Assembly: GCA_017537365.1 (NCBI GenBank)
Contig: JAFYKZ010000021.1
Location: 1 to 53,647, forward strand
DNA: 53,647 bases
DNA from: Clostridia bacterium
GTDB lineage: Bacteria > Bacillota > Clostridia > Oscillospirales > Acutalibacteraceae
Direction of reading: 5' to 3'
Part shown: one piece after another, positions 1 to 18,281 of the stretch
Layout of the letters: the number at the start of each line of letters is the position of its first letter
Position numbering within the stretch: the stretch's first letter is position 1
The notes under the pieces: model-generated
Told to the model about the DNA's origin: nothing
The model's database searches: none
The model's input: only the letters and a program-made list of their open reading frames with translations
Program-made: the position numbers and the translations under genes

Positions 1-1
1 A

Positions 2-370
2 AAGGAACTTCTTGCACGTCTTCGTGCGCTCGGCAGACGAACTCTTGGTACTACGGACGGAGTTTTATCCTTTGCAGATATTACTCTTGATACAAGCACC
101 CTTGCTTTATCCTGTACTACCAATGGTCAGAGTGTACGGCTCAGTGAAAAAGAATACCGTATCCTTGAATATTTAATTTCAAATAGTGGTCAGATTCTTA
201 CCCGTGAACAGTTGGCTGTGAAAATTTGGGGCTTTGAGAGTGATGCAGAATACAACAATGTAGAAGTGTATATGTCCTTTACTCGAAAGAAACTCAGCTT
301 TATTGAAGCAAAAACCGAAATAAAGGCAGTGCGAGGTATCGGATATGAATTGAGGTGTGACGATGTTTAA
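2..370 (+). CDS. OmpR/PhoB-family response regulator, C-terminal part (5' truncated by window)
   Basis: An open frame runs in from the window edge and ends at a TAA at 368-370. It encodes the linker and the whole winged-helix DNA-binding domain of an OmpR-type regulator. Visible marks are LSEKEYRILEYLI, then ILTREQLAVKIWGF and the final VRGIGYELR, which is the wing and C-terminal strand of this family. The receiver domain with the phospho-acceptor Asp lies upstream of the window. The stop overlaps the start of the histidine kinase, so the two are translated as a pair. Target genes cannot be read from the sequence. Confidence 0.9.
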   Translation, partial: KELLARLRALGRRTLGTTDGVLSFADITLDTSTLALSCTTNGQSVRLSEKEYRILEYLISNSGQILTREQLAVKIWGFESDAEYNNVEVYMSFTRKKLSFIEAKTEIKAVRGIGYELRCDDV

Positions 371-1610
371 GCAATCAAGAAGAAAAATTGTTGCAGCTAT
401 TATGTCTATACTCGTACTTTTATGGGTGGGTACACTTAGCGTAATTTACGCATCGAGTTATTTTGAAATGTCAAAACAAAACGAGCAGATGCTTAAAGCT
501 CACGCTGAAATGTATAGTCTTTCCGGTTCGTTTGATGGAATGATGCCTCCAAGCAGACCTTTCCCCGGTGGCAATCCCGGATCCCCGCCCGATTTTACTG
601 AGTCGCCAATGTTTCAGTTGTCCACTTTCTATACGGTCGCTGTTTCTTATGACGGACAAATCCTTGAAACAAAAAACGAACCGCCAACAGTACATAGCGA
701 TTCCGATTTAGAAGAATTGGCAAAAGATATTATTAAAAGCAACAAAACTAATGGTACTCAAAATAACCTTGCCTATTATAAAACAGATAAAGATGGCTAT
801 ACTCTTGTTGCTTTTAAAGACAATACCGTTATTAACGAAAGCGCAATGACCTTGTTCCGCTATACGCTGCTTTTCGGCGGTCTTGCATTGGTTGTGTTTT
901 TCTTTTTGTCGGTATATTTGGCCAAAAAGATCGTTAATCCGCTTGAGGAAAGTTACCAAAAACAAAAGCAGTTTATTTCCGATGCGGGTCACGAACTGAA
1001 AACCCCCGTGTCCGTTGTAAGTGCAAACGCAGAACTGCTATCCCGTGAAATTGGCGATAATCAGTGGCTACAAAATATTCAGTATGAAAACGAGCGTATG
1101 GGAATGCTCGTAGGACAACTCCTTGACCTTGCTCGTACTGAGAACGTGACACCGCAGATGGAACACATCAATTTGAGCAGATTGGTTGACGGTGAAGCAC
1201 TCCCATTTGAAAGTGTTGCCTTTGAAAAAGGACTCACTTTGAACACAAACATTACAAGCAATATCTGTGTGTTTGGAAATAGCACACAGCTCAAACAAAT
1301 TGTATCAATTCTGCTTGATAACGCTATTCGTCATAGCAAAGAACGAGGTGAAGTGTGGTTGACTTTAACAAAGGAACACGGTTTTGCCAAACTATCCGTA
1401 ATAAATAAAGGTGATGAAATCCCCGAAGAACAACGCGCGAAAATCTTCGAGCGGTTCTACCGTGTGGATACCGCCCGTAATAGCGAAGACAAGCACTACG
1501 GACTCGGTCTCGCCATTGCAAAAGCAATTGCCACTTCCCACAAAGGTCATATTGAGGTGCAATGCTTTAATGGATTTGTAGAGTTCAGCGTGCAAATTTC
1601 TGCACTATAA
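363..1610 (+). CDS. Membrane sensor histidine kinase
   Basis: Sensor kinase partner of the preceding response regulator. The ATG at 363 is preferred over an in-frame GTG at 357 because GAGGTG sits just upstream; it overlaps the regulator stop by 8 bp. There are two membrane spans (about residues 9-31 and 165-188). The extracytoplasmic segment between them includes a Pro/Gly-rich stretch (MMPPSRPFPGG). The kinase core follows directly: H-box DAGHELKTPV (His about 210), N-box LLDNAIRHS, then FYRVDT and the G-box GLGLAIAKAIA. No clear HAMP domain is visible. The stimulus is unknown; location inside a mobile element suggests accessory sensing (antibiotic, peptide or metal), which is inference. 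Confidence 0.92.
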   Translation: MFKQSRRKIVAAIMSILVLLWVGTLSVIYASSYFEMSKQNEQMLKAHAEMYSLSGSFDGMMPPSRPFPGGNPGSPPDFTESPMFQLSTFYTVAVSYDGQILETKNEPPTVHSDSDLEELAKDIIKSNKTNGTQNNLAYYKTDKDGYTLVAFKDNTVINESAMTLFRYTLLFGGLALVVFFFLSVYLAKKIVNPLEESYQKQKQFISDAGHELKTPVSVVSANAELLSREIGDNQWLQNIQYENERMGMLVGQLLDLARTENVTPQMEHINLSRLVDGEALPFESVAFEKGLTLNTNITSNICVFGNSTQLKQIVSILLDNAIRHSKERGEVWLTLTKEHGFAKLSVINKGDEIPEEQRAKIFERFYRVDTARNSEDKHYGLGLAIAKAIATSHKGHIEVQCFNGFVEFSVQISAL

Positions 1611-1673
1611 TCCGTATATTAAAAAATATTTTCAATTTTCAAGAATATTTTGTATATACTTAGCTCGTTATAT

Positions 1674-1710
1674 AATTGAGGGGGTGTTTTAACAGCTTTC
1701 TCAATTTTTT
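1674..1710 (+). terminator. Rho-independent terminator after the two-component pair
   Basis: AATTGAG pairs with CTCAATT and is extended by G-T pairs, followed by a run of six T. It lies 64 bp after the kinase stop. Confidence 0.65.
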
Positions 1711-1730
1711 AAAAATATTCAAAAAAACTC

Positions 1731-1760
1731 TTGACAAACGAACATTTGTTCTGTTATAAT
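1731..1760 (+). promoter_or_regulatory. Sigma-A promoter with embedded LexA (SOS) box
   Basis: TTGACA at 1731-1736 and TATAAT at 1755-1760 are separated by 18 bp. The spacer contains CGAACATTTGTTC (1739-1751), which fits the Gram-positive LexA box CGAAC-N4-GTTC(G). A repressor bound there would block the promoter directly, so the downstream transcript should be induced by DNA damage. Confidence 0.8.
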
Positions 1761-1766
1761 GTAAAA

Positions 1767-1983
1767 TGCTGAATTATCGGCACTTACAACTTAATATGAA
1801 GATGTGTTAAAACATAACATTCGTGGCTTATGCCACCGCCTTCACAAATGCCATTGGACTGTTGGCAGAGAAGGTTGATTATACAGTCCCGTCTTTGAAT
1901 TTCAAAGTCGATACATAGAACATCGGATTTAAGCGAGAGCAGTGCTCCCGCTTATTCGTGCTACCTATGTATCGGCTTTTTTA
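1767..1983 (+). ncRNA. Short structured transcript ending in a terminator (leader RNA or small RNA)
   Basis: The transcript predicted from the LexA-box promoter starts near 1767. At 1909-1918 CGATACATAG pairs perfectly with CTATGTATCG at 1965-1974, followed by a T-rich tract (1977-1987). A nested hairpin (AAGCG...CGCTT, 1931-1953) sits in its loop. A short frame is also open here from 1811 to the TAG at 1916-1918, with GTG at 1823 as the only likely start and no ribosome site. It is either a small RNA, an attenuator, or the decayed end of a gene. I do not recognise the family. Confidence 0.45.
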
Positions 1984-2331
1984 TTTTGTTTTCAAAGAAA
2001 ACACTATACAACATTCTCATTTTAAGAAAGCACCTTGACAACTGAATGACCGTCCGGATGGGATATGATTTTGCGATGATACGAGCGAAACGACGCCGCT
2101 GAAAAAGGGGTTAGGAACGACATTTGGGGAGAAACGGCAAAATGGCTCTTGAGCTGTAAAAGTAGAACTTTTTCAAATAGAAAGAGGTTTTACGATATCC
2201 GCATCGTTTGGAGTGTTTCTATTAAAAAATCCGTATTTTCATCAGGTCTTGAACTGAGGAAAATCGGCCAAAAATGCCTTACTTACAAAAACAAAAAAAA
2301 TCAAGCTATTTTTAGAAAGGAGTGTGAAATT

Positions 2332-2631
2332 GTGAAAACGGGACTTAAGAAATCGCAAAAGACTACGGAGATATTTTTCGATGAAGCGAGTCGGTGGATT
2401 ATGGTGAGAACATATAACACCGATCTCAAAAACAGATTGACCGCCTACGCTAAAAAACATCCTGACTTATGTAGGCTTACCGATGATACAGAGGATGGCG
2501 GTCTTTCCTTTGAAGTTGCGAAAGGGCGGTTTTGTTTTCGGTTGACCGAGCCGTATAGCGATGAGCGACGGGCGGCGGCAAGTGAATTTGCAAAGAAACA
2601 AAACAACCGACTTCGCAACCATAAAGTTTAG
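2332..2631 (+). CDS. Conserved small element protein of unknown function (99 aa)
   Basis: The GTG start at 2332 is chosen because AAAGGAG lies 8-14 bp upstream; the longer upstream frame from 2149 has no ribosome site and does not look protein-like. The product begins MKTGLKKSQKTTEIFF and is rich in charged residues, with no membrane segment, signal peptide or Cys motif. Similar short proteins are familiar to me from Clostridia integrative elements, upstream of mobilization genes, but no function is known. It precedes the oriT-like repeat and the relaxase gene. An accessory role in transfer is possible, but nothing in the sequence proves it. Confidence 0.7.
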   Translation: MKTGLKKSQKTTEIFFDEASRWIMVRTYNTDLKNRLTAYAKKHPDLCRLTDDTEDGGLSFEVAKGRFCFRLTEPYSDERRAAASEFAKKQNNRLRNHKV

Positions 2632-2719
2632 GTGGGGTTCAGGGTGCCCTTTTCAAAGGGCAGTCCTGATGGGGTGTTATCCGCAGATAACGGGGCAACG
2701 CCCCTTCCACCTCGTAGAG

Positions 2720-2792
2720 CCCACTGACATCTTTGCACGGAGTATCCGTGAAAGTGTCATAGTGGGTTACACACTTTGAAAAGGTGTGTAAC
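2720..2792 (+). other. oriT: Probable origin of transfer (oriT), pMV158/MobV type
   Basis: Two inverted repeats lie just upstream of the relaxase gene. The outer repeat pairs CCCACTGACA (2720-2729) with TGTCATAGTGGG (2755-2766) and encloses a perfect CACGGA-GTA-TCCGTG hairpin (2736-2750). The second is GTTACACACTTT (2766-2777) and AAGGTGTGTAAC (2781-2792), with a 3-nt loop and one G-T pair. It closely resembles the ACACACTTTA...TAGTGTGT repeat nicked by MobM of pMV158. Position and MobV partner fit; nicking is inferred. Confidence 0.65.
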
Positions 2793-2836
2793 GAAGAAAA
2801 GAAAAATTACTATAAAAATGAAAGGATGTGATGTAA

Positions 2837-4102
2837 ATGGCAAGACAAAATTATAGCGTTGCAAGGGTAAAAACCCGAACGCAAGAATCGGTCGGCAAGT
2901 TTGAACGGCATATTGAACGTAAGAACGAACACTATGCCAATATGAATGTAGATTTAGAAAGAGTGCCTATGAATGTGCAGTATAAAGGGTGCGGTGAACT
3001 GACCTATAACGAAATGTTACAGAAGTTGGTGGATGAAGGCAAGATTTCTATGCGAGGTCTTAAAAAGGATGCCAAGGTTTACGATGAGCTTATCTTTGAT
3101 ATAAACTCGGAATACTTTGAAGAACATGGCGGGTATGAATTTGCAAAAGCATTTTACGAAGAAGCATATTACTTTGCCGAAAAACTTTACGGAAAGGACA
3201 ACATCCTCTCCGCCGTTATGCACGCTGATGAAATCAACCTCACGCTATCAGATAAATATGGTTATCCCGTTTACCATTACCATATGCACGTTATGGCTTT
3301 GCCCGTTGTGGAGAAAAAGGTGCTTTGGTCAAAGCGATGCAAAGATAAGTCTTTGATTGGCACTGTTAAAGAAATTATCAATCAAATAAGCCACTCAAAG
3401 AAATGGAAATCTCCGCAAAAGCTCAACGAATATGGTGAACCCGAGTTTAACGAAAAAGGAAAGCCGGTACTTGTGCCATCCTACAGTATCCTGCAAGATC
3501 AATTCTACGAGCATATGCAAAAAGCAGGTTTCAGGGATTTTGAAAGAGGTGTGCGTGGCAGCACCGCACAAAATAAAACTGATGCACGTTTTCAAGCCGA
3601 GCAGGATAAAAAGCGCCTTGCGGCAATTCAAGAAAAGATTGAGCAAGCAAATGAGGAACTGTCCACTATCCTCCCCGTTAAGGCAAGCGCCGAGCTCATA
3701 GATAATATGGGCAAGAAAACGCTGACAGGCAAAATTCAAATGTCGGGCGAAGATTATACCTATCTCACCAACTTAGCCAAAGAGTGTCTTGTGAACCGCA
3801 GGGATATATATTTCCTTGAAAGCAGTTTGCGAGGTTACAAAAGCAAACTTGCTGAGGTAAGATCGGAACTTGCGGAACTGAAATCAAAATGCAAACCGTT
3901 TTTAGAAGCATTGACGCTTGCACCGAAGAAAGTTATGGAGTTTATAGAGCGAATCATAAAACCAAGATATAAACCCGTACCTCAGAAAAAAGTGCTTTCC
4001 GATCCGTATGTTTGGAACATTGCAGTTGATCCAAGCAAAATCGCAACACCGCCCGAACAAACAAAACCCAAAAAGAAAAACAAAGGAGGTAGAGATAGAT
4101 GA
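2837..4102 (+). CDS. MobV-family relaxase (plasmid mobilization/recombination protein)
   Basis: Relaxase of 421 aa that would nick the oriT-like repeat just upstream and pilot single-stranded DNA through a conjugation channel supplied by another element. The N-terminal MobV/Pre domain shows an early HIERKNEHYANMN stretch, an acidic mid part, and the metal-binding HYHMHVMALP segment (about residues 150-160). A long charged coiled-coil region (about 250-350) follows, and the tail is lysine-rich. The start ATG follows AAAGGATG. The stop overlaps the next gene by 4 bp (ATGA). No type IV secretion genes are in view, so the element looks mobilizable rather than self-transmissible on present evidence. 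Confidence 0.9.
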   Translation: MARQNYSVARVKTRTQESVGKFERHIERKNEHYANMNVDLERVPMNVQYKGCGELTYNEMLQKLVDEGKISMRGLKKDAKVYDELIFDINSEYFEEHGGYEFAKAFYEEAYYFAEKLYGKDNILSAVMHADEINLTLSDKYGYPVYHYHMHVMALPVVEKKVLWSKRCKDKSLIGTVKEIINQISHSKKWKSPQKLNEYGEPEFNEKGKPVLVPSYSILQDQFYEHMQKAGFRDFERGVRGSTAQNKTDARFQAEQDKKRLAAIQEKIEQANEELSTILPVKASAELIDNMGKKTLTGKIQMSGEDYTYLTNLAKECLVNRRDIYFLESSLRGYKSKLAEVRSELAELKSKCKPFLEALTLAPKKVMEFIERIIKPRYKPVPQKKVLSDPYVWNIAVDPSKIATPPEQTKPKKKNKGGRDR

Positions 4103-4329
4103 CAAACAACGATGATATTTTCAAGATAATCGATGACATTACCGAGCATCTTAAAACGCTGACAAAAGAACAACGCATCGCTTGGTTTAAAAAGAATATG
4201 TATATCGAGCCGTTAAGCTTTACAAAAGAGATTGACGGCACGCTTTACGTGGTCAGAACACTCTTTAAAGAAGATGCCAAAGAGAACATCGCTGAAAAGA
4301 TTCAGCGTATAGTTTTGAAAAAAGAGTAA
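4099..4329 (+). CDS. TnpW-like transposon-encoded small protein
   Basis: Protein of 76 aa translationally coupled to the relaxase (ATGA overlap). The C-terminal half (KEIDGTLYVVRTLFKEDAKE then KIQRIVLKKE) resembles the TnpW family found beside TnpX-type serine recombinases in Tn4451-like elements; the N-terminal helix-rich segment is extra. No catalytic motif is visible. A role as accessory factor for excision or transfer is assumed for the family but not established. Charged residues are distributed throughout and no membrane span is seen. Confidence is moderate because the match covers a short region only. Confidence 0.6.
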   Translation: MTNNDDIFKIIDDITEHLKTLTKEQRIAWFKKNMYIEPLSFTKEIDGTLYVVRTLFKEDAKENIAEKIQRIVLKKE

Positions 4330-4357
4330 AAAAGATTTAATTTATCGCTTTAAAGTG

Positions 4358-6099
<1,742 letters not shown>

Positions 6100-6158
6100 C
6101 CAATAGCTATACCGCAAAACGTATATCAATTATTCAGTTTAGATACAAGAGCCACACC

Positions 6159-6190
6159 TTGGGGCACCTTCCTTACGGAGGGTGCCCCAA
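6159..6190. repeat. Perfect 10-bp inverted repeat downstream of recombinase 1
   Basis: TTGGGGCACC (6159-6168) and GGTGCCCCAA (6181-6190) flank a 12-nt loop. No T-run follows, so it is a weak candidate for a terminator and could be a structural element near a transposon end. Confidence 0.6.
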
Positions 6191-6357
6191 ATGCGGCGCT
6201 ATTATTTTATAAATTTGTAAATCATATTTTAAAGTAATTAAGAAATCAAAAAGAAAGGGCGAGTTGAAATGAAAAGTTTTAAATTAGAGTGCTAACCGCA
6301 AAGTCTGTAGCATAGTATGTATTGTGAAGAAAAATAACAAATGGTGGTGTTTTCGCT

Positions 6358-6516
6358 GTGGACAAGACTAAACTAAAATACAAATTCAATAATCTCAACT
6401 CGGTGGAAGACACCGCCAATATACTTCTTAAGCTTTTTGTTGAGGCTAACAAGCCGATGGTTGAAGAAGTTATAAAAAACAAATTAAAAGAGTTATCAGA
6501 AAGCCATTCCGCATAA
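6358..6516 (+). CDS. Small acidic/lysine-rich protein upstream of recombinase 2 (52 aa)
   Basis: Too short for standard ORF filters. GTG at 6358 starts a frame reading (M)DKTKLKYKFNNLNSVEDTA and ending SESHSA at the TAA 6514-6516. GGTGG lies 11-15 bp upstream, a little far. Similar 45-60 aa proteins with an N-terminal KYKFNNxNS motif accompany recombinase genes in Clostridia elements, as far as I recall; function unknown. Its place just before an integrase makes it a candidate recombination directionality factor, which is inference only. No HTH or metal motif is apparent. Confidence 0.5.
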   Translation: MDKTKLKYKFNNLNSVEDTANILLKLFVEANKPMVEEVIKNKLKELSESHSA

Positions 6517-6601
6517 AGTGGGATGGCTTAAAATAAATTTCTGGACTTGTGAAATAATGTATGATATTGTGTCATTACAAAATAAAAGGAGAAAAAATAA
6601 T

Positions 6602-8137
6602 ATGAACATAGCAGCATATTGCAGAGTATCAACCGAAAAGGAAGACCAATTAAATTCCCTTGAAGCACAGAAAAATTTCTTTCTTGAATACACCGGACGT
6701 CGTGGCGATAATCTTGTGAGATTATATGCGGACGAGGGTATTTCGGGTACGAAAATCAAAAATCGCAAACAGTTTTTAAGAATGATGCAGGATGCAGAGA
6801 TTGGGCTGTTTGATATGGTTGTGGTAAAGGACATATCCCGATTTGCCCGTAACACAGTTGACCTATTGCAAAATATCCGTAGGCTTCGTGAACTCGGCAT
6901 TGAAACACAATTCCTTACTGCTAATATGACAAGTATGGGTAACAGTGAATTTGTGCTTACCGTGTTCGGTGCATTGGCGCAAGAAGAAAGTGCTAACACT
7001 TCTAAGCGTGTAAAATTTGGCAAAAAAATAAATGCAGAAAAGGGGAGAGTTCCAAATCTGGTTTTCGGTTACGATAAAACAATCGGCGATTATTTTAATC
7101 TGACTATAAATAGCGATGAGGCAAAAACAGTACGACAGATTTTTGATTGGTACATAGATGACGGCTACGGGGCTACAAAAATTTCAATAATGCTGAATGA
7201 ACGAGGTATTAGAACAAAGCGAGGTTGCAAATGGACTTCAAATGCAATATGTCGAATACTTGAAAATGAATTATACACAGGTAAAATAATTAACGGAAAA
7301 GAAGAAGTGGCGGATTTCCTTACAGGTAGAAGAGCTACAAAAAGTGAGGAAGAATGGTTTATAACCGAACGCCCCGAGCTTAGAATTATTGATGAAGAAA
7401 CCTTTGAAACGGCAAACAAAATAAAGAAAAACCGAAATCTTATGTTTAAAACCCAAAACAAAAAGCATAGCAATCAGCATTTATTTTCAACCCTTATACG
7501 ATGTAAGGAGTGCGGTTGGTCGTTCAGGAGAACAGTGCGTACATACAAAAACACTTATGTAAAATGGGTGTGCTCAGGGCGAAACGGAAAAGGTGCGGAT
7601 AGTTGTCCTAATGCTGTAACAATAGATGAGGACGAGCTTATAGAGGTTATCGAAAATTATTTTTCAGATATACTATCACACAAAAAGAATGTTATAAGCA
7701 AGATAGTGGATGAGTTTAAAAGGATTTACAAAGCCAAAGACGATAATACGTTAAAGGAAAAAGAACTGAGTCAGGAACTGAACAAGCTGAACCGCAACCG
7801 TCAGAAATATATTGATATGTATACCGATGAGCTTATAACAAGAGAGGAACTGAAGGCTAAAATCGGTAAGGACAAGCGGGAGATAGAAAGACTGCAAAGT
7901 GAACTGAAATTGGTGGAGCAAAACCTGACAAAAGGCGATAAGTTAGAAATTATATTAAATGACACCTTTAAAAAGATTGGGGATGTATGCAATCTCAGAA
8001 ATGTTAATAACACGCAACTAAAGAAAGTGATAGACAGAATTGATGTTGACCACGATGGAAATGTGGAAATACATTTAAAGCTTCTTAAAGAAATAGGGCT
8101 TGACGAAACCGTTCTAATTCACAACGCTTGCACATAA
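6602..8137 (+). CDS. Large serine recombinase whose gene ends in the spoIIID attachment site
   Basis: Protein of 511 aa starting at the ATG 6602 (AAAAGGAG upstream; the longer frame from 6518 lacks a site). The resolvase domain starts MNIAAYCRVSTEKEDQ with nucleophile Ser10 and contains VVKDISRFARN. The recombinase domain covers about 150-260, a zinc ribbon opens CKECGWSFRR and closes with a distal C...C, and a coiled coil runs from about 390 to 460. The stop TAA at 8135-8137 lies within DNA that also reads as spoIIID (His-Lys codons in frame +0), so the 3' end of this gene is made by the integration junction. It is the likely integrase/excisionase for the element in spoIIID. Confidence 0.93.
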   Translation: MNIAAYCRVSTEKEDQLNSLEAQKNFFLEYTGRRGDNLVRLYADEGISGTKIKNRKQFLRMMQDAEIGLFDMVVVKDISRFARNTVDLLQNIRRLRELGIETQFLTANMTSMGNSEFVLTVFGALAQEESANTSKRVKFGKKINAEKGRVPNLVFGYDKTIGDYFNLTINSDEAKTVRQIFDWYIDDGYGATKISIMLNERGIRTKRGCKWTSNAICRILENELYTGKIINGKEEVADFLTGRRATKSEEEWFITERPELRIIDEETFETANKIKKNRNLMFKTQNKKHSNQHLFSTLIRCKECGWSFRRTVRTYKNTYVKWVCSGRNGKGADSCPNAVTIDEDELIEVIENYFSDILSHKKNVISKIVDEFKRIYKAKDDNTLKEKELSQELNKLNRNRQKYIDMYTDELITREELKAKIGKDKREIERLQSELKLVEQNLTKGDKLEIILNDTFKKIGDVCNLRNVNNTQLKKVIDRIDVDHDGNVEIHLKLLKEIGLDETVLIHNACT

Positions 8138-8291
8138 AGATGTTACTGAGAAATTAAGGCGGGATAATCCTCAGCTTTATCGAAAGGTTAAGGCTGTGCT
8201 TGAAAAGAATAAACAGGAAAGGCATATCAGAGGTGGTATGGCTACTAAGCGGAAGTATAAAGGATATTTGGCAGAGGCGGAAAATCTTTAA
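8133..8291 (+). pseudogene. spoIIID: spoIIID 3' fragment (interrupted sporulation regulator)
   Basis: The frame from CAT 8133 to TAA 8289-8291 reads HKDVTEKLRRDNPQLY and then ERHIRGGMATKRKYK. This matches the C-terminal half of SpoIIID (Bacillus subtilis STVHKDLTERLPEINPDL and RHLRGGEATKLKYK). SpoIIID is the small DNA-binding protein that works with sigma-E and sigma-K in the mother cell. The break falls at the end of the HTH recognition helix (VSKSTV|HKD). Upstream of the junction is recombinase sequence, so the first 42 or so residues are missing here and should lie beyond the left end of the window. As it stands the fragment has no start codon or ribosome site and cannot give a functional protein. 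Confidence 0.88.
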
Positions 8292-8344: not shown

Positions 8345-8605
8345 ATTTTAAAGGCTTTGACGAAGACGGTTTGAAATCTATGTTTTTAGAGAGTCGGTGG
8401 CTGGTGAAAACCGATAGCATTATTTCTTTATACCCATCACTTCTGAGCTGGTAGGCTGAACTTTTAGTAGGTCTTCCCGTGCGGCTTGCGTAAAGGCATA
8501 AGAGTTGTTAGACTCTGAGTGGCGGTTTAAAACTGCAATTTGAGTGGTACCGCGGATGTAATTTCACATTCGTCTCAAAGAAATTTGAGACGAATGTTTT
8601 TTTTA
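8345..8605 (+). promoter_or_regulatory. T-box riboswitch, apparent isoleucine (ATC) specifier
   Basis: Stem I carries GACGAAG, the AGAGAG...GGTGAAAACC distal part and the CTTCTGAG strand. The triplet before the conserved purine and CTTCTGAG is ATC (8436-8438), an isoleucine codon. The T-box sequence TGGTACCGCG is at 8545-8554. The terminator is CATTCGTCTCAAA (8567-8579) with TTTGAGACGAATG (8584-8596), followed by eight T. Uncharged tRNA-Ile should allow read-through into the acyl-CoA synthetase gene. Confidence 0.9.
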
Positions 8606-8635: not shown

Positions 8636-10903
8636 ATGAACACTAATAATGCTTTATTGCAGCTTTCAGAGGTGGCTTCACGAATTAAAGAGCTTCGCGA
8701 TATTATGGGTTGGTCGGTTGAGGATATGGCAAGTAAAACCGGCGTTAGCGAAGAAAAATATTTAGCCTATGAAAGCGGAAAGAAAGACATTCCTTTTACA
8801 TTTATACATAAATGCGCTTTGATTTTCGATGTTGAAATGACTGAGCTTTTAGAGGGTCATACCGCTAAGCTTTCGAGTTATACTGTAACCAGAAAGGGTC
8901 AAGGACAGGGAACTGCTAAGGAAGACGGTATTGATATTGCAAACTTAGCTCCTAAATTCAAGGATAAACTAGCTGAGCCTTACTGGGTTAAATATGAATA
9001 TTCGGCTGAGCAGCAAAACAGTCCTATTAAATTAACTTCTCACTCGGGACAAGAATTTGACCTTGTTTTGAGCGGAAAACTTAAAGTTCAAGTTGGTACT
9101 CATACTGAGATACTTGAAGAAGGCGATAGCATTTATTACAATTCTTCAACACCTCATGGTATGATTGCTGTTGATGGTAAAGATTGTGTATTCTGCGCTG
9201 TTGTAATGTCAGGTGAGGATACGGCGGAGCCTGTTGCACGCGAGAGTGTTATTTCTGCCAAGCAATCAGAAAAGCTTATCTGCGAAAAGTTTGTTGAAAC
9301 TATTTGCGACCAAAATGGTGCGTTGCAGGATATTAAATTTAAAAATACAGATGAATTTAACTTCGGTTTTGATATTGTTGATAAAATTGCAGATAAATAT
9401 CCTGATAAGCTTGCTATGCTTCATTTGGATGTTAACCGTAACGAGCGCCGTTTTACCTTTAAGGATATTAAGCGTCATTCAAATCAGGCCGCAAATTACT
9501 TTACTTCGCTTGGTATCAAAAAGGGCGATAAGGTAATGCTTGTTCTTAAAAGACACTATCAGTTCTGGTTCTGTATGGTGGCATTGCATAAGCTTGGCGC
9601 AGTTGCAATTCCTGCAACAAATCAGCTTAAACAACACGATTTTGAATACCGTTATAATGCCGCTAATGTTAGCTCAATCGTTTGCACTGCTGACGGTGAT
9701 ACTGCTTCAATAGCTGAGGCTGCGGCTAAAAATTGCCCTCAGGTTAAAAATCTTATTATGGTTGGCGGAAAAAGAGACGGTTGGCATGATTTTGACGAAG
9801 AATATAAGCTGTTTTCACGCAAATATGTTCGCCCTGAGGATGCTTCGAGCGGCGACGAAATGGCGCTTATGTTCTTCACATCGGGAACAACAGGCAATCC
9901 TAAAATGGCAGCGCATAAACATACTTATGCATTAGGTCATTTTGTTACTGCTAAATATTGGCATTGTTGCGAGAGAGATGGTCTTCATTTAACTATTTCA
10001 GATACAGGCTGGGGAAAATCCCTTTGGGGCAAGCTATATGGACAATGGCTTTGCGAGGGTGCAGTTTTTGTATATGATTTCGATAGGTTTGATGAAAACG
10101 ATATTTTGCCGATGTTTGCAAAATATAACATAACCACCTTCTGCGCACCTCCGACAATGCTTCGAATGTTAATCAGAGGTGATTTATCTAAATTTGATTT
10201 ATCCTCAATCCATCATATGACAACTGCCGGAGAGGCTTTAAATCCTGAGGTTTATAAGCAATTCAAGGATGCAACAGGACTTGAAATTATGGAGGGCTTT
10301 GGTCAGACCGAAACAACCCTTATAATTGCAAATCTTTTGGGAACAGTTCCAAAAATAGGCTCAATGGGTAAAGCTTCACCGCAGTTTGATATTGATATAG
10401 TTGACCCTGATGGTAATTCGGTTGCAGCAGGTGAAGTTGGCGAAATCGTTATTCATACCGATAAGAACATACCTTGTGGTTTGTTCCTTGAATATTATCT
10501 TGATAATGAAAAAACATCTGATGCTTGGTATGACGGTATGTATCACACGGGTGATACCGCTTGGCGCGATGAGGATGGATATTTCTGGTATGTAGGTCGT
10601 GTTGATGATGTTATTAAGTCGTCAGGCTACCGTATTGGACCTTTCGAGATAGAGAGCGTTATTATGGAGCTTCCTTATGTTTTGGAATGTGGCGTTTCGG
10701 CAGAGCCTGATGAAATCAGAGGTCAGGTTGTTAAGGCAAGTATAGTTTTAACAAAAGGCACCGAGGGCACTGAGGAATTAAAGAAAGAAATCCAAAATTA
10801 TGTTAAGTCTCACACTGCTCCTTATAAGTATCCCAGAAAGGTTGTTTTCAGAGACGAGTTGCCCAAAACCATAAGCGGTAAAATCCAAAGAAACAAACTA
10901 TAA
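8636..10903 (+). CDS. HTH-cupin-acyl-CoA synthetase fusion (predicted 2-methylbutyrate/branched-chain acid CoA ligase)
   Basis: Three-domain protein of 755 aa. Residues about 10-70 form an XRE-type helix-turn-helix (IKELRDIMGWSVEDMASKTG). About 120-190 is a cupin with LTSHSGQEFDLVLSG and YYNSSTPHG. About 230-755 is an acyl-adenylate synthetase of the medium-chain (ACSM) type with TSGTTGNPK, GFGQTE, YHTGDTA and the catalytic Lys motif PKTISGKIQRNKL. It would activate a short carboxylic acid with ATP and CoA. The upstream Ile T-box suggests 2-methylbutyrate as substrate, feeding isoleucine synthesis through the Vor and IlvE enzymes downstream. The HTH-cupin half looks like an intact regulator, so the protein may also sense ligand or bind DNA (inference). 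Start ATG 8636 follows AAAAGGAG. Confidence 0.88.
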   Translation: MNTNNALLQLSEVASRIKELRDIMGWSVEDMASKTGVSEEKYLAYESGKKDIPFTFIHKCALIFDVEMTELLEGHTAKLSSYTVTRKGQGQGTAKEDGIDIANLAPKFKDKLAEPYWVKYEYSAEQQNSPIKLTSHSGQEFDLVLSGKLKVQVGTHTEILEEGDSIYYNSSTPHGMIAVDGKDCVFCAVVMSGEDTAEPVARESVISAKQSEKLICEKFVETICDQNGALQDIKFKNTDEFNFGFDIVDKIADKYPDKLAMLHLDVNRNERRFTFKDIKRHSNQAANYFTSLGIKKGDKVMLVLKRHYQFWFCMVALHKLGAVAIPATNQLKQHDFEYRYNAANVSSIVCTADGDTASIAEAAAKNCPQVKNLIMVGGKRDGWHDFDEEYKLFSRKYVRPEDASSGDEMALMFFTSGTTGNPKMAAHKHTYALGHFVTAKYWHCCERDGLHLTISDTGWGKSLWGKLYGQWLCEGAVFVYDFDRFDENDILPMFAKYNITTFCAPPTMLRMLIRGDLSKFDLSSIHHMTTAGEALNPEVYKQFKDATGLEIMEGFGQTETTLIIANLLGTVPKIGSMGKASPQFDIDIVDPDGNSVAAGEVGEIVIHTDKNIPCGLFLEYYLDNEKTSDAWYDGMYHTGDTAWRDEDGYFWYVGRVDDVIKSSGYRIGPFEIESVIMELPYVLECGVSAEPDEIRGQVVKASIVLTKGTEGTEELKKEIQNYVKSHTAPYKYPRKVVFRDELPKTISGKIQRNKL

Positions 10904-11271: not shown

Positions 11272-13569
11272 ATGAAACAAATTACAGGACTTGATGTTAA
11301 AATCAAGGAAATGGCGGGGCGTATTAAGGAGCTTCGCGAAATTGAGGGCTTATCTGTTAAAGATATGGCTCAAAAAACCGATGTTAGCGTTGAAGAATAT
11401 ATTTCTTGCGAAAACGGTGATAGCGATTTAAACTTCGCATTTATTTACCGTTGCGCTAATGTTTTTAATGTTGATGTTACTGATATTATCGAGGGTTATA
11501 GCCCTAAATTAAAATCTTATACCGTAACAAGAGCAGGGGAAGGTCAGCGTATTGAAAAGGCGCATGGAATGACCTACTATAATTTAGCTTATGCTTTTAA
11601 AAACCGTATTGCAGAGCCTTTGTATGTTGAGAGTGTATATTCAGATGAGGCTCAAAGCCGCGATATTGAGCTTACTACTCACGCGGGTCAGGAATGCGAT
11701 ATTGTTATAAGCGGTCATCTTAAAGTTCAGGTTGGCGAGCATACCGTTATTTTAGGTCCTGGGGATAGTATTTATTACGATTCCTCAACTCCTCACGGTA
11801 TGATTGCGGTTGAGGGAGAAAACTGCCGTTTCTATGCGATAGTGCTAAACCCAACAGGTGAACCTATTCCTGAACTTTCGGATAAGAAACACGCAACCTT
11901 TAAAAAGGAAAAGCAGATAAAAGCGCGTGATACCAAAGACCGTATCTATAAAAAGTATATTGATATAGAGGAAAACGAGGTTGGAACTCCAACTTCAATT
12001 AAATTTAAAAATACCGAAAACTTTAACTTCGGATTTGATTTGGTTGATGCCCTTGCCGACCGCGAGCCTGAAAAGTTAGCTCTTTTACATATTTCGCGCG
12101 ATGGCGCAGAACGCAGATTCACCTTTAAGGATATTAAGAAAGCATCTAACCAATGCGCTAACTATTTTAAATCTTTGGGAATTAAAAAAGGCGATAAGGT
12201 TATGCTCGTGCTAAAACGCCATTATCAGTTCTGGTTTAGCATGATAGCTTTAAATAAGCTTGGTGCAATAGCAATTCCTGCAACAAATCAGCTTCAAGAG
12301 CATGATTTTGAATATCGCTTTAATTCGGCAGGTGTTAATGCCGTTATTTGCACTGTTGACGGTGATACAGCTCATCAAATTGATTTGGCGGCAGAAAAAT
12401 GTCCAACCGTTCAAAATAAGCTTATCGTTAACGGCGCTCGCGAGGGTTGGAGAAGCTTTGACGAGGAATACACTCTTTATAGCACTCATTTCAATCGCAC
12501 CGAAGATACCGCCTGCGGAAACGATTTAATGCTTATGTATTTCACTTCGGGAACTTCAGGTTACCCAAAAATCGCCGCTCATAACTTCAAATATCCGTTA
12601 GGTCATTTCCATACTGCGAAATATTGGCATAATGTTGACCCTGAGGGACTTCATTTCACAATATCTGATACAGGCTGGGCAAAGGCTATGTGGGGTAAGC
12701 TTTACGGTCAATGGCTTTGCGAGGCGGCAATTTTTGCTTATGATTTCGACCGTTTTGATGCGGCTGAGATTTTGCCGATGTTTGCTAAGCATAAGATAAC
12801 CACCTTCTGCGCGCCTCCAACAATGCTCAGAATGTTAATTAAGCAAGATATTTCTCAATATGATTTATCTTCTGTCAAGCATATGACAACTGCGGGCGAG
12901 GCTCTAAACCCTGAGGTTTACCGCCAGTTCGAAAAAATAACAGGCTTGCAAATTTTAGAGGGCTTTGGTCAGACCGAAAGCACTATGATTATCGGTAATA
13001 TGACCGGTGCTTCGCATAAAATCGGTTCAATGGGTAAACCTGCTCCGATTTATGATGTTCATATTGTTGACCCTGACGGTAATGATGTTCCGGTTGGTGA
13101 AACAGGTGAAATCGTTATAAATATCAAAGAAGGTCTCCCTTGCGGACTTGCTACCTGTTACTATGGTGATGAGGAAAAAACCGCAGAAACCTGGAAAGAT
13201 GGTTATTATCATACAGGTGATACCGCTTGGATGGATGAAGATGGTTTCATTTGGTATGTGGGTCGCGTTGATGATGTTATTAAATCTTCGGGTTACCGCA
13301 TAGGACCTTTCGAGATAGAAAGCGTTATTATGGAACTTCCTTATGTTTTGGAATGCGGTGTTTCGGCTGCACCTGATGAGGTTAGAGGTCAGGTTGTTAA
13401 GGCTAGCATAGTTTTAGTAAACGGCACCGAGCCTTCCGAAGAACTTAAAAAGGAAATCCAAAACTATGTTAAGGAAAAAACCGCTCCTTATAAATATCCT
13501 CGTATAGTTGTATTCAGAGATAGTCTGCCTAAGACTACGAGCGGAAAAATTCAAAGAAACAAACTGTGA
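11272..13569 (+). CDS. HTH-cupin-acyl-CoA synthetase fusion, paralogue 2 (predicted isobutyrate CoA ligase)
   Basis: Protein of 765 aa, a close paralogue of the gene at 8636 with the same order: XRE HTH (RIKELREIEGLSVKDMAQ), cupin (LTTHAGQECDIVISG, YYDSSTPHG), ACSM-type synthetase (TSGTSGYPK, GFGQTES, YHTGDTA, PKTTSGKIQRNKL). The two C-terminal regions are nearly identical over long stretches, so this is a tandem duplication that kept separate T-boxes. The Val specifier suggests isobutyrate as preferred acid. It is first in an operon with the Vor subunits and IlvE and ends in TGA overlapping the next frame. Regulator function of the N-terminus is untested. Confidence 0.88.
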   Translation: MKQITGLDVKIKEMAGRIKELREIEGLSVKDMAQKTDVSVEEYISCENGDSDLNFAFIYRCANVFNVDVTDIIEGYSPKLKSYTVTRAGEGQRIEKAHGMTYYNLAYAFKNRIAEPLYVESVYSDEAQSRDIELTTHAGQECDIVISGHLKVQVGEHTVILGPGDSIYYDSSTPHGMIAVEGENCRFYAIVLNPTGEPIPELSDKKHATFKKEKQIKARDTKDRIYKKYIDIEENEVGTPTSIKFKNTENFNFGFDLVDALADREPEKLALLHISRDGAERRFTFKDIKKASNQCANYFKSLGIKKGDKVMLVLKRHYQFWFSMIALNKLGAIAIPATNQLQEHDFEYRFNSAGVNAVICTVDGDTAHQIDLAAEKCPTVQNKLIVNGAREGWRSFDEEYTLYSTHFNRTEDTACGNDLMLMYFTSGTSGYPKIAAHNFKYPLGHFHTAKYWHNVDPEGLHFTISDTGWAKAMWGKLYGQWLCEAAIFAYDFDRFDAAEILPMFAKHKITTFCAPPTMLRMLIKQDISQYDLSSVKHMTTAGEALNPEVYRQFEKITGLQILEGFGQTESTMIIGNMTGASHKIGSMGKPAPIYDVHIVDPDGNDVPVGETGEIVINIKEGLPCGLATCYYGDEEKTAETWKDGYYHTGDTAWMDEDGFIWYVGRVDDVIKSSGYRIGPFEIESVIMELPYVLECGVSAAPDEVRGQVVKASIVLVNGTEPSEELKKEIQNYVKEKTAPYKYPRIVVFRDSLPKTTSGKIQRNKL

Positions 13570-17959: not shown

Positions 17960-18020
17960 TGTAATATTTTATTGATTTTTTGCATATTTTTAATTAAATT
18001 TTAAATAAAAGGTGCTTAAA

Positions 18021-18281
18021 ATGGAAATTTTGAAATATGCAGTAATATCAGTTTTATCGTTATCGGCTTTTCTGATTTTTTGTTTTGCGGTAAAATCCGG
18101 AAAGTTATTAAAAACTCTTTTGTTAAATGGCTTTATTGGTATTTGTTTGCTTGCGATAATCAATCTAACTTCACGATTTAGTGGGGTTCATATACCTATA
18201 AATTTATATACAGTTTCTAGTAGCGCGGTATTAGGTATACCTGCGCTTATTGGATTCTTGCTTTTGGTTTTTATTTTTTAA
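18021..18281 (+). CDS. bofA: Pro-sigma-K processing inhibitor BofA-like membrane protein
   Basis: Protein of 86 aa with hydrophobic segments at about 4-25, 32-52 and 66-86. The C-terminal part (SSSAVLGIPALIGFLLLV) is the conserved signature of BofA, which holds the SpoIVFB protease inactive until forespore signalling in sporulation. ATG 18021 follows AAAGGTG; an in-frame GTG at 18012 is inside that site. It has its own short unit between the ilvE terminator and uvrA. Its presence supports a sporulating lineage. Some clostridial genomes keep bofA-like genes without a classical SpoIVF complex, so the role is by family only. Confidence 0.75.
   Translation: MEILKYAVISVLSLSAFLIFCFAVKSGKLLKTLLLNGFIGICLLAIINLTSRFSGVHIPINLYTVSSSAVLGIPALIGFLLLVFIF

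Follow-up and report, generated by a model that had tools for sequence, protein, structure and literature searches.

Among the sporulation genes split by intervening elements, those named in the passages available of three reports are sigK, spoVFB, spoVR, spsM, gerE, kamA and yabG (PMC6957869, PMC5595907, PMC10747680). Described here is an element in another gene, spoIIID, one end of which lies on a 53,647-nucleotide contig of a Clostridia bacterium of the Acutalibacteraceae (GenBank assembly GCA_017537365.1, contig JAFYKZ010000021.1), referred to here as the window. This is very likely a mobile spoIIID-intervening element, and it is probably excised under mother-cell control. At its junction with the host gene is a large serine recombinase gene, int, and directly upstream of int is a small gene, c1, a candidate for a recombination directionality factor (RDF), preceded by a mother-cell-type promoter.

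The closest described system is SPβ in spsM of Bacillus subtilis, for which the passages at hand report a vegetative integrase, sprA, and a small gene, sprB (58 amino acids), with a mother-cell promoter (PMC4191935, PMC6957869). Shared with it, on that description, are the split sporulation gene, the element-borne large serine recombinase and the position of a small gene with a mother-cell-type promoter directly upstream; expression of the integrase during growth, shown for SPβ, is presumed for int. The two differ in that spoIIID encodes a regulator placed early in the mother-cell programme, in that the hosts are gut Clostridia, and in that no phage structural gene is present among the scanned proteins of the window and of contig C10, which carries the other end of the element. 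The likeness between c1, which has no credible family or structure match, and sprB is one of layout alone.

In the available account of skinCd, in sigK of Clostridioides difficile, a constitutive recombinase (CD1231) is paired with an RDF (CD1234, 72 amino acids) controlled by sigma-E and SpoIIID (PMC5025042). A constitutive recombinase, a small mother-cell RDF with a sigma-E promoter, and excision that restores a mother-cell regulator are the features that the spoIIID element would share with it, the comparison being one of descriptions and not of proteins. CD1234 requires SpoIIID as well; with spoIIID itself split, sigma-E alone would have to suffice for c1. The gin element in gerE of Bacillus cereus ATCC10987 is described with three serine recombinases and a 9-bp junction overlap (PMC5595907); like the present element it is not a phage and interrupts a very short gene for a transcription factor, and it differs in its gene, its late stage and its host range as described, the B. 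cereus group, with the recombinases likened by description only. The yin element of Clostridium botulinum, in yabG, is excised as a circle and encodes a putative RDF with a putative SigK promoter (PMC10747680). It is likewise a case of a sporulation gene split in a clostridium, with a putative RDF under a putative mother-cell promoter, but in another gene; as described there it is prophage-like and unique to one strain, whereas the spoIIID family extends across many genera.

Among the literature matches listed, from a search in which most subscription journals were outside the scope, there is no description of an element in spoIIID, and those listed for spoVAD do not describe a spoIIID element either. 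A survey of serine recombinases with site-specific targets does not name spoIIID in the passages available (PMC10083194), and a study of Anaerostipes reports strain differences in spoIIID and spoVAD, with no cause given in the part accessible (PMC12888040). No literature was matched on spore formation in three named species that carry the element.

The split spoIIID locus

The window is contig C20 of the assembly (G000; 1.72 Mb, 31 contigs, 98.2% complete). The first-pass annotation, made from the letters of the window, had placed a startless C-terminal half of SpoIIID directly after the second of two recombinases, and this is confirmed: the frame at 8133–8288 on the forward strand encodes HKDVTEKLRRDNPQLYRKVKAVLEKNKQERHIRGGMATKRKYKGYLAEAENL, is closed by a stop codon at 8289–8291 and has no start codon of its own. 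Its translation matches PF12116 (E = 7.6e-19, profile positions 37–79 of 82) and TIGR02844 (E = 1.6e-17, 63.6 bits; the cut-off of 111.5 is set for the whole protein, and a shortfall is expected for a half). The annotation had also called for a 5′ half next to a matching att site upstream of the window. Both are present at the other end of the element, though on contig C10, because the window begins inside the element at a contig end. The 5′ half occupies C10 positions 17963–18076, with an ATG at 17963 and 38 codons up to SKSTVH; it reads MRESLPDRAVLLGEYILDTGATVRAAAKVFKISKSTVH and then TAVTI and a stop codon, continuing into foreign sequence past the core. These two pieces are all that a search of G000 for spoIIID returned, and no intact copy was found. 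Neither of the two results that the annotation had named as fatal to its reading, an intact spoIIID elsewhere or a missing 5′ half, was therefore obtained.

Common to both junctions is a 5-bp core, ACATA, at 8132–8136 of the window (attR, forward strand) and at 18073–18077 of C10 (attL). Flanking the core as inverted arms are the element ends, AACCGTTC and GAACGGTT, and the TAA stop codon of int (8135–8137) overlaps the attR core. The corresponding empty site is found in the sister genome G022, in which spoIIID is open and intact (locus L025), with identical gene families on either side. The left flank of G000 aligns to this locus at 87.0% over 1597 bp, ending at position 1603, and the right flank at 90.5% over 1635 bp, starting at position 1599, their overlap being exactly the 5 bp of the core. 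The attachment site in spoIIID (attB) falls at the codons SKSTV–HKD. Given the direct repeat at both ends and the open gene of G022, excision would restore the reading frame exactly, and the earlier claim of an integrative element interrupting spoIIID is borne out. The two same-sense halves of the gene, with the element between them, are separated by a contig gap in G000. In G076, whose genome is a single contig, nothing of the kind intervenes, and the element measures about 3.0 kb.

Int and its distribution

Next to the junction, at 6602–8137 on the forward strand, is the element-borne int, encoding a large serine recombinase of 511 amino acids with Resolvase, Recombinase and Zn_ribbon_recom domains. 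Among 70 genomes of the genus, spoIIID is present only in intact form in 52, as both halves in six (G000, G032, G037, G054, G063 and G065, all broken at the identical point) and without a match in seven; G006 and G057 have a single junction near a contig end, G005 has a 5′ half with the left end of the element plus an intact copy, and G027 and G028, cut by contig ends, are excluded from the counts. Relatives of int (68–73% identical, E <= 1e-60) occur in exactly the six two-half genomes of the 70, as does c1 (E <= 0.001).

A wider survey, of 84,980 species with a single genome apiece, yielded 182 relatives of int, the best 80 of which were used. Adding ten loci found by searching whole genomes, and the window itself, brings the total to 91 loci, or 88 distinct ones after three met twice are merged (L040/L079, L058/L074 and L059/L082). 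Directly after int stands an open spoIIID 3′ half at 87 of the 91 loci (84 of the 88 distinct). L122 and L062 are cut by a contig end yet read HKD, and L080 and L093 lie at other sequences, in genomes without a spoIIID match (G468 and G480). Even at 45–54% identity, eight of 11 loci are at spoIIID (L063–L067 and L069–L071); L068 ends in a join resembling attP, the junction of joined element ends, and L072 and L073 are elsewhere. Int is specific for the spoIIID site.

Fifty of the 80 genomes with int relatives were examined for spoIIID halves. Both halves without an intact gene are present in 40, the 3′ half only in seven and neither in two; G466 combines a 3′ half with an intact but unlike spoIIID copy and was rejected as evidence of excision because the two copies are not alike. 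In 15 genomes of the family, two of which (G191 and G363) are also counted among the 50, the corresponding numbers are 12 with both halves and no intact gene (G076 among them), one with the 3′ half only and two with an intact gene. Across 14 complete and six partial elements, int is the sole large gene common to all. The elements form a family that is widespread in Clostridia, a breadth that the first-pass annotation had not foreseen, and divergence between loci indicates that int jumps between species. Isolates with the element in their genomes include Schaedlerella arabinosiphila DSM 106076, Blautia massiliensis GD8, Agathobaculum butyriciproducens DSM 100391 and Flavonifractor sp. An82.

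An origin of the halves as chimeras of different genomes, by faulty assembly or binning, could be suspected from G000, in which they are on different contigs, and from the fragmented assemblies of G000 and many of its relatives. The empty site of G022, however, matches both flanks with a 5-bp overlap, and the halves share a single contig in 27 of the 40 two-half genomes (where the shortest elements are 5.2–6.2 kb) as well as in G076. We give such an artefact almost no credence, and for the family it is already refuted.

c1 and its promoter

Upstream of int, at 6358–6516 on the forward strand, is c1, which encodes 52 amino acids from a GTG start codon. All 14 complete elements contain it, 11 by a hidden Markov model profile and three (G498, G499 and G503) by a reading frame below the same promoter. 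In these three the frame follows a ribosome-binding-like site, with no ATG, GTG or TTG at the expected start; ATC may serve as the start codon. Within 4 kb upstream of int, c1 is found in 53 of 87 loci, and in 49 of the 80 that have at least 600 bp of upstream sequence; some of the 31 misses are elements in which c1 is further away or was read by eye. As read, its length ranges from 35 to over 70 amino acids. It has no Pfam match above the cut-off, no PHROGs family and no credible relative in the PDB, where a profile search gave weak, unrelated matches only. We regard c1 as a candidate RDF.

Preceding c1 in the window, at 6292–6320 on the forward strand, is a match to a sigma-E-type promoter, CTAA-N15-CATAGTATGT. 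The general pattern, [ACT]TA[AT]-N15-CATA, was applied to 49 of the 53 c1 upstream regions (four are under 130 nucleotides) and is present in 43 of them, representing 26 of 31 clusters at 60% identity. Shuffled sequences yield a mean of 0.8–0.9 and a maximum of six matches in 49 (200 shuffles), and other spacings from 9 to 20 yield zero to six. The same pattern stands upstream of the host spoIIID in 27 of 30 loci (L032 and L049 being one locus counted twice), and upstream of int in four of 86 and of other open reading frames in 37 of 1,034. We take this pattern to be the sigma-E layout; its likeness to the host spoIIID promoters is independent of that assumption. In 18 of the 49 c1 promoters, the window's own not among them, the CATA box is followed by GGACAA, and GGACAAG is presumably a SpoIIID site. 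A GTAAC..GAA motif is found upstream of int in 53 of 86 cases, and 27 of the 86 have a sigma-A-like pattern there.

Selection on the split gene

Because int moves between species, conservation of a split gene may predate the insertion, and the selection test was limited to two pairs of genomes with orthologous elements, G076/G209 and G081/G211. Conservation of the 3′ half across all carriers was rejected as a test for the same reason, and G284/G193 was dropped from the sum, as the cargo differs and the insertions are independent. The elements of G076 and G209 contain the same glycosyltransferase, a c1-like gene and int between colinear flanks; the synonymous divergence (dS) of int is 1.12, and that of the measurable flanking genes 0.84–1.77, with one gene saturated. 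In G081/G211 a colinear cluster extends over 26–28 kb, with a dS of 0.92 for int, 0.21–1.81 for other element genes, 0.42–0.64 for the downstream flank and 3.85 for one upstream gene. Not counted in the host ranges were two reading frames, one antisense over the 3′ half (ratio 1.58) and one that overlaps the 5′ half (ratio 0.70), together with a saturated gene.

The spoIIID halves differ between G076 and G209 by one nonsynonymous change in 198 sites and 15 synonymous changes in 60, and between G081 and G211 by three in 195 and 27 in 60. Together this amounts to four nonsynonymous changes in 393 sites and 42 synonymous changes in 120, for which the neutral expectation is 138 nonsynonymous changes (Fisher 4e-25). 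Leaving out eight codons on each side of the core, since Int itself may conserve them, changes this to three in 319 and 39 in 98. The split spoIIID is, by this measure, under purifying selection in both species pairs, which argues indirectly that the host gene still functions although split.

Other sporulation genes are retained. SpoIVA is encoded in 53 of 57 genomes with a junction (G032 and G467 being one genome counted twice), in 16 of 16 intact members of the genus and in three of five without spoIIID; for SpoVAD, whole or in pieces, the numbers are 55 of 57, 15 of 16 and five of five. In two genomes spoIVA itself is matched in two pieces, 1–150 and 144–492 in G472 (252 kb apart on one contig, C20) and 2–406 and 398–492 in G474; a further sporulation gene may be interrupted here, or the assembly may be broken.

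Joined element ends

Junctions of the attP type were sought in viral contigs (two forms of the pattern) and in 281 sequences, with a pattern whose left half fits 22 known attL sites with 0–3 mismatches. Three contigs from a viral collection (L277–L279; 50, 69 and 119 kb) contain an int, 64% identical, whose frame crosses the core and continues in a left arm, reaching 525 amino acids, and upstream of it are c1 and its promoter, CTATTTCAGGATTTCGCTTCATAAGTTAG. Since the stop codon of the window's int lies partly within the core, its recombinase must have another C-terminal end once the element ends are joined. No spoIIID half lies within the 8–12 kb examined of these contigs, which share one int sequence and are counted as one find. 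A similar join is present at G293:C17:23520 (L260/L261). The genome concerned has a further int, located at its attR, and its attL differs. A further match, L280, has no int and was set aside as due to chance.

The proteins beside the L278 junction do not support reading L277–L279 as phage, four of them having no PHROGs match and two being of the AAA-ATPase/PDDEXK_9 kind. Nor was a phage origin accepted on the strength of MT838016, at 54.8%, as that record is itself a locus of the same kind, with int and a spoIIID 3′ half. The record (MT838016.1, L276), entered as Bacteriophage sp. and 6398 bp long, is from human faeces; in it a relative of int is followed by the spoIIID 3′ half, and it looks bacterial. 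No plasmid match was found, and a search of viral contigs with the window's int returned no relative.

Purifying selection and attP-type junctions would also fit an element that is lost at a low rate in growing cells, with a minority that regains intact spoIIID forming spores and thereby keeping the halves selected. Int need not be bound to sporulation on that account, and the sigma-A-like pattern in 27 of the 86 upstream regions, with the sigma-E pattern absent from 82, agrees with it. Such unregulated loss would leave the c1 promoter unexplained, and none of the 40 two-half genomes contains a second, joined copy of the same gene in its assembly, although rare forms are seldom retained there. 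We judge it decidedly unlikely.

Probable repair products and the spoVAD element

The intact spoIIID of G005, which it holds while attL persists, has a promoter and 5′ half copied from the attL side, with 96% identity over 168 bp (L048/L049). Extra copies of the spoIIID promoter and 5′ half, each with an attL scar, are also present in G487 (L195), G493 (L191/L192) and G496 (L193), those of G493 and G487 beginning at the same point, about 60–70 bp before the start codon. They look like the outcome of repeated insertion and repair, with cargo left behind, and we read all four genomes as showing repair after the element lost its integrase.

In the same genus, spoVAD is broken at one point (at about 205/200 of the profile). 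Both halves are present in six of the 70 genomes (G008, G011, G018, G036, G037 and G066) and a single half in 13 more, some of them cut by contig ends; G012 has a whole spoVAD and two extra 3′ halves. The left junction is alike in the eight genus loci read (from the set L204–L221).

Both observations bear on the possibility that spoIIID is a selfish landing site, conserved and dispensable for growth, so that a carrier would be asporogenous until it lost the element or mended the gene, and such lineages would be weeded out over time. The repair products of G005, G487, G493 and G496 fit this, as do the splitting of spoVAD by another element and the recent date of most insertions by an int that moves between species. 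It is at odds with the two species pairs in which the element is orthologous and spoIIID is under strong purifying selection, and with the conserved mother-cell-type promoter of c1, for which a purely vegetative element has no obvious use. We consider this explanation rather unlikely.

Content and boundaries of the element

The right-hand part of the element, including the attR core, occupies positions 1–8136 of the window, and its left part extends on C10 from 18073 to the contig end at 39593. In the window, all on the forward strand, the order is the C-terminal part of a response regulator that runs off the contig end (2–370; Trans_reg_C, PF00486, E = 2.2e-21), a sensor histidine kinase carried as cargo (357–1610; HATPase_c, HisKA), a Mob_Pre relaxase (2837–4102; PF01076, E = 5.3e-39), TnpW (4099–4329; PF14202, E = 2.4e-13), recombinase 1, a TnpX-like large serine recombinase (4435–6099; Resolvase, Recombinase, Zn_ribbon_recom and DUF4368), c1, int and attR. 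The relaxase, TnpW and recombinase 1 belong to a nested mobilizable transposon that we take to be Tn4451-like from its TnpV, TnpW and TnpX genes. Like Tn4451-type transposons it forms one Mob/TnpW/TnpX-like unit, with TnpV on C10, inside the spoIIID element; it differs in being nested cargo, and its DUF4368 recombinase is not the integrase beside the spoIIID junction. The relaxase, which next to an integrase of the element's own would mark an integrative mobilizable element (IME), thus lies in the nested unit. Relatives of it cluster with reading frames of G472 and G485, and none is found among those of the G076 element.

On C10, attL is followed by a polysaccharide cluster (Bac_transf, glycosyltransferases, Polysacc_synt, PS_pyruv_trans and an epimerase) and, at the contig end, by TnpV and an ABC permease. 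As TnpV on C10 and the TnpW and TnpX-like genes of the window look like one split Tn4451-like unit, we infer that C10 and C20 adjoin in the genome; an exact overlap between their ends was looked for and not found. If they are contiguous, the element is at least 29.6 kb long. Several small elements (L184–L187, L191 and others) have an AAA ATPase and a RloB-like gene near int, resembling AbiL-type defence (named by eye).

Beyond the element, a T-box leader (RF00230, 104 bits) at 8348–8580 of the window lies ahead of an AMP-binding synthetase (8636–10903) with an N-terminal helix-turn-helix and a cupin domain, and a similar reading frame adjoins it at 11272–13569.

Interpretation

We read the element as a widespread intervening element of the skin and SPβ type that acts earlier in the mother-cell programme. 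During growth, Int would be present and, alone, capable of integration only, joining attP of the free element to the conserved attB in spoIIID at ACATA and leaving two dead halves. c1 would be its directionality factor, made solely in the mother cell under sigma-E. Int and c1 together would recombine attL with attR, releasing a circle and restoring spoIIID in the terminal mother cell, and sporulation would proceed while the forespore keeps the element; the SpoIIID made afterwards may switch c1 off again. As a whole, regulated excision of this kind, with Int and c1 restoring spoIIID in the mother cell, is in our estimate reasonably likely. A fuller version, in which sigma-E drives c1 as a new RDF family, c1 turns Int to excision, spoIIID is rebuilt in the mother cell only and SpoIIID then shuts c1 off through GGACAA at its promoter, with the circuit carried near the top of the mother-cell programme by a widespread, horizontally moving class of elements in gut Clostridia and a like one at spoVAD, is offered tentatively, at somewhat under an even chance. 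The first-pass annotation had left two alternatives, skin-like regulated excision and a strain disabled for sporulation. The mother-cell-type promoter of c1, purifying selection in two pairs and the retained sporulation genes favour excision, and its likeness to skin is drawn from anatomy and selection.

Several observations weigh against regulated excision. In most comparisons between hosts the split gene has diverged much further than int (at L099/L106, a synonymous difference, pS, of 0.036 for int, and 20.5 of 32 synonymous sites for the spoIIID half), so most insertions are recent and uninformative on function. The promoter and selection evidence rest on different branches: G076 and G209 have a c1-like gene that lacks the strict promoter pattern, and c1 is not recognized in the G081 and G211 loci. 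Parallel insertion after the species split seems unlikely for G076/G209 and less so for G081/G211; in that pair most element genes show as much divergence as the downstream host genes, or more, and replacement or parallel insertion is possible. For int, a promoter of the sigma-A type is matched in just 27 of the 86 loci, with none obvious in the window. The attP-type junctions, all of them in contigs of other organisms, may represent either free circles or tandem copies, and G005 and the three arrays of G487, G493 and G496, with their repaired or replaced 5′ halves, suggest that insertion can be costly. Finally, another element family splits spoVAD in the same genus, and as we take spoVAD to be a forespore gene, mother-cell excision would not explain that split; the element there would have to leave the germ line and return.

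The mechanism is of a known type, at an unexpected gene and of unexpected breadth. The split genes named at the outset are different ones; several are late or accessory, and most are described in single species groups, whereas spoIIID encodes a regulator active ahead of sigma-K, and the family spans many genera of gut Clostridia, culturable isolates among them. The proposal is open to a direct bench test in culturable strains, and it provides a candidate for a new family of directionality factors along with a recombinase whose site is well defined. If it is true, spore formation, by which many gut bacteria travel from host to host, would often be gated by a movable element whose cargo also includes, for example, polysaccharide or defence-like genes.

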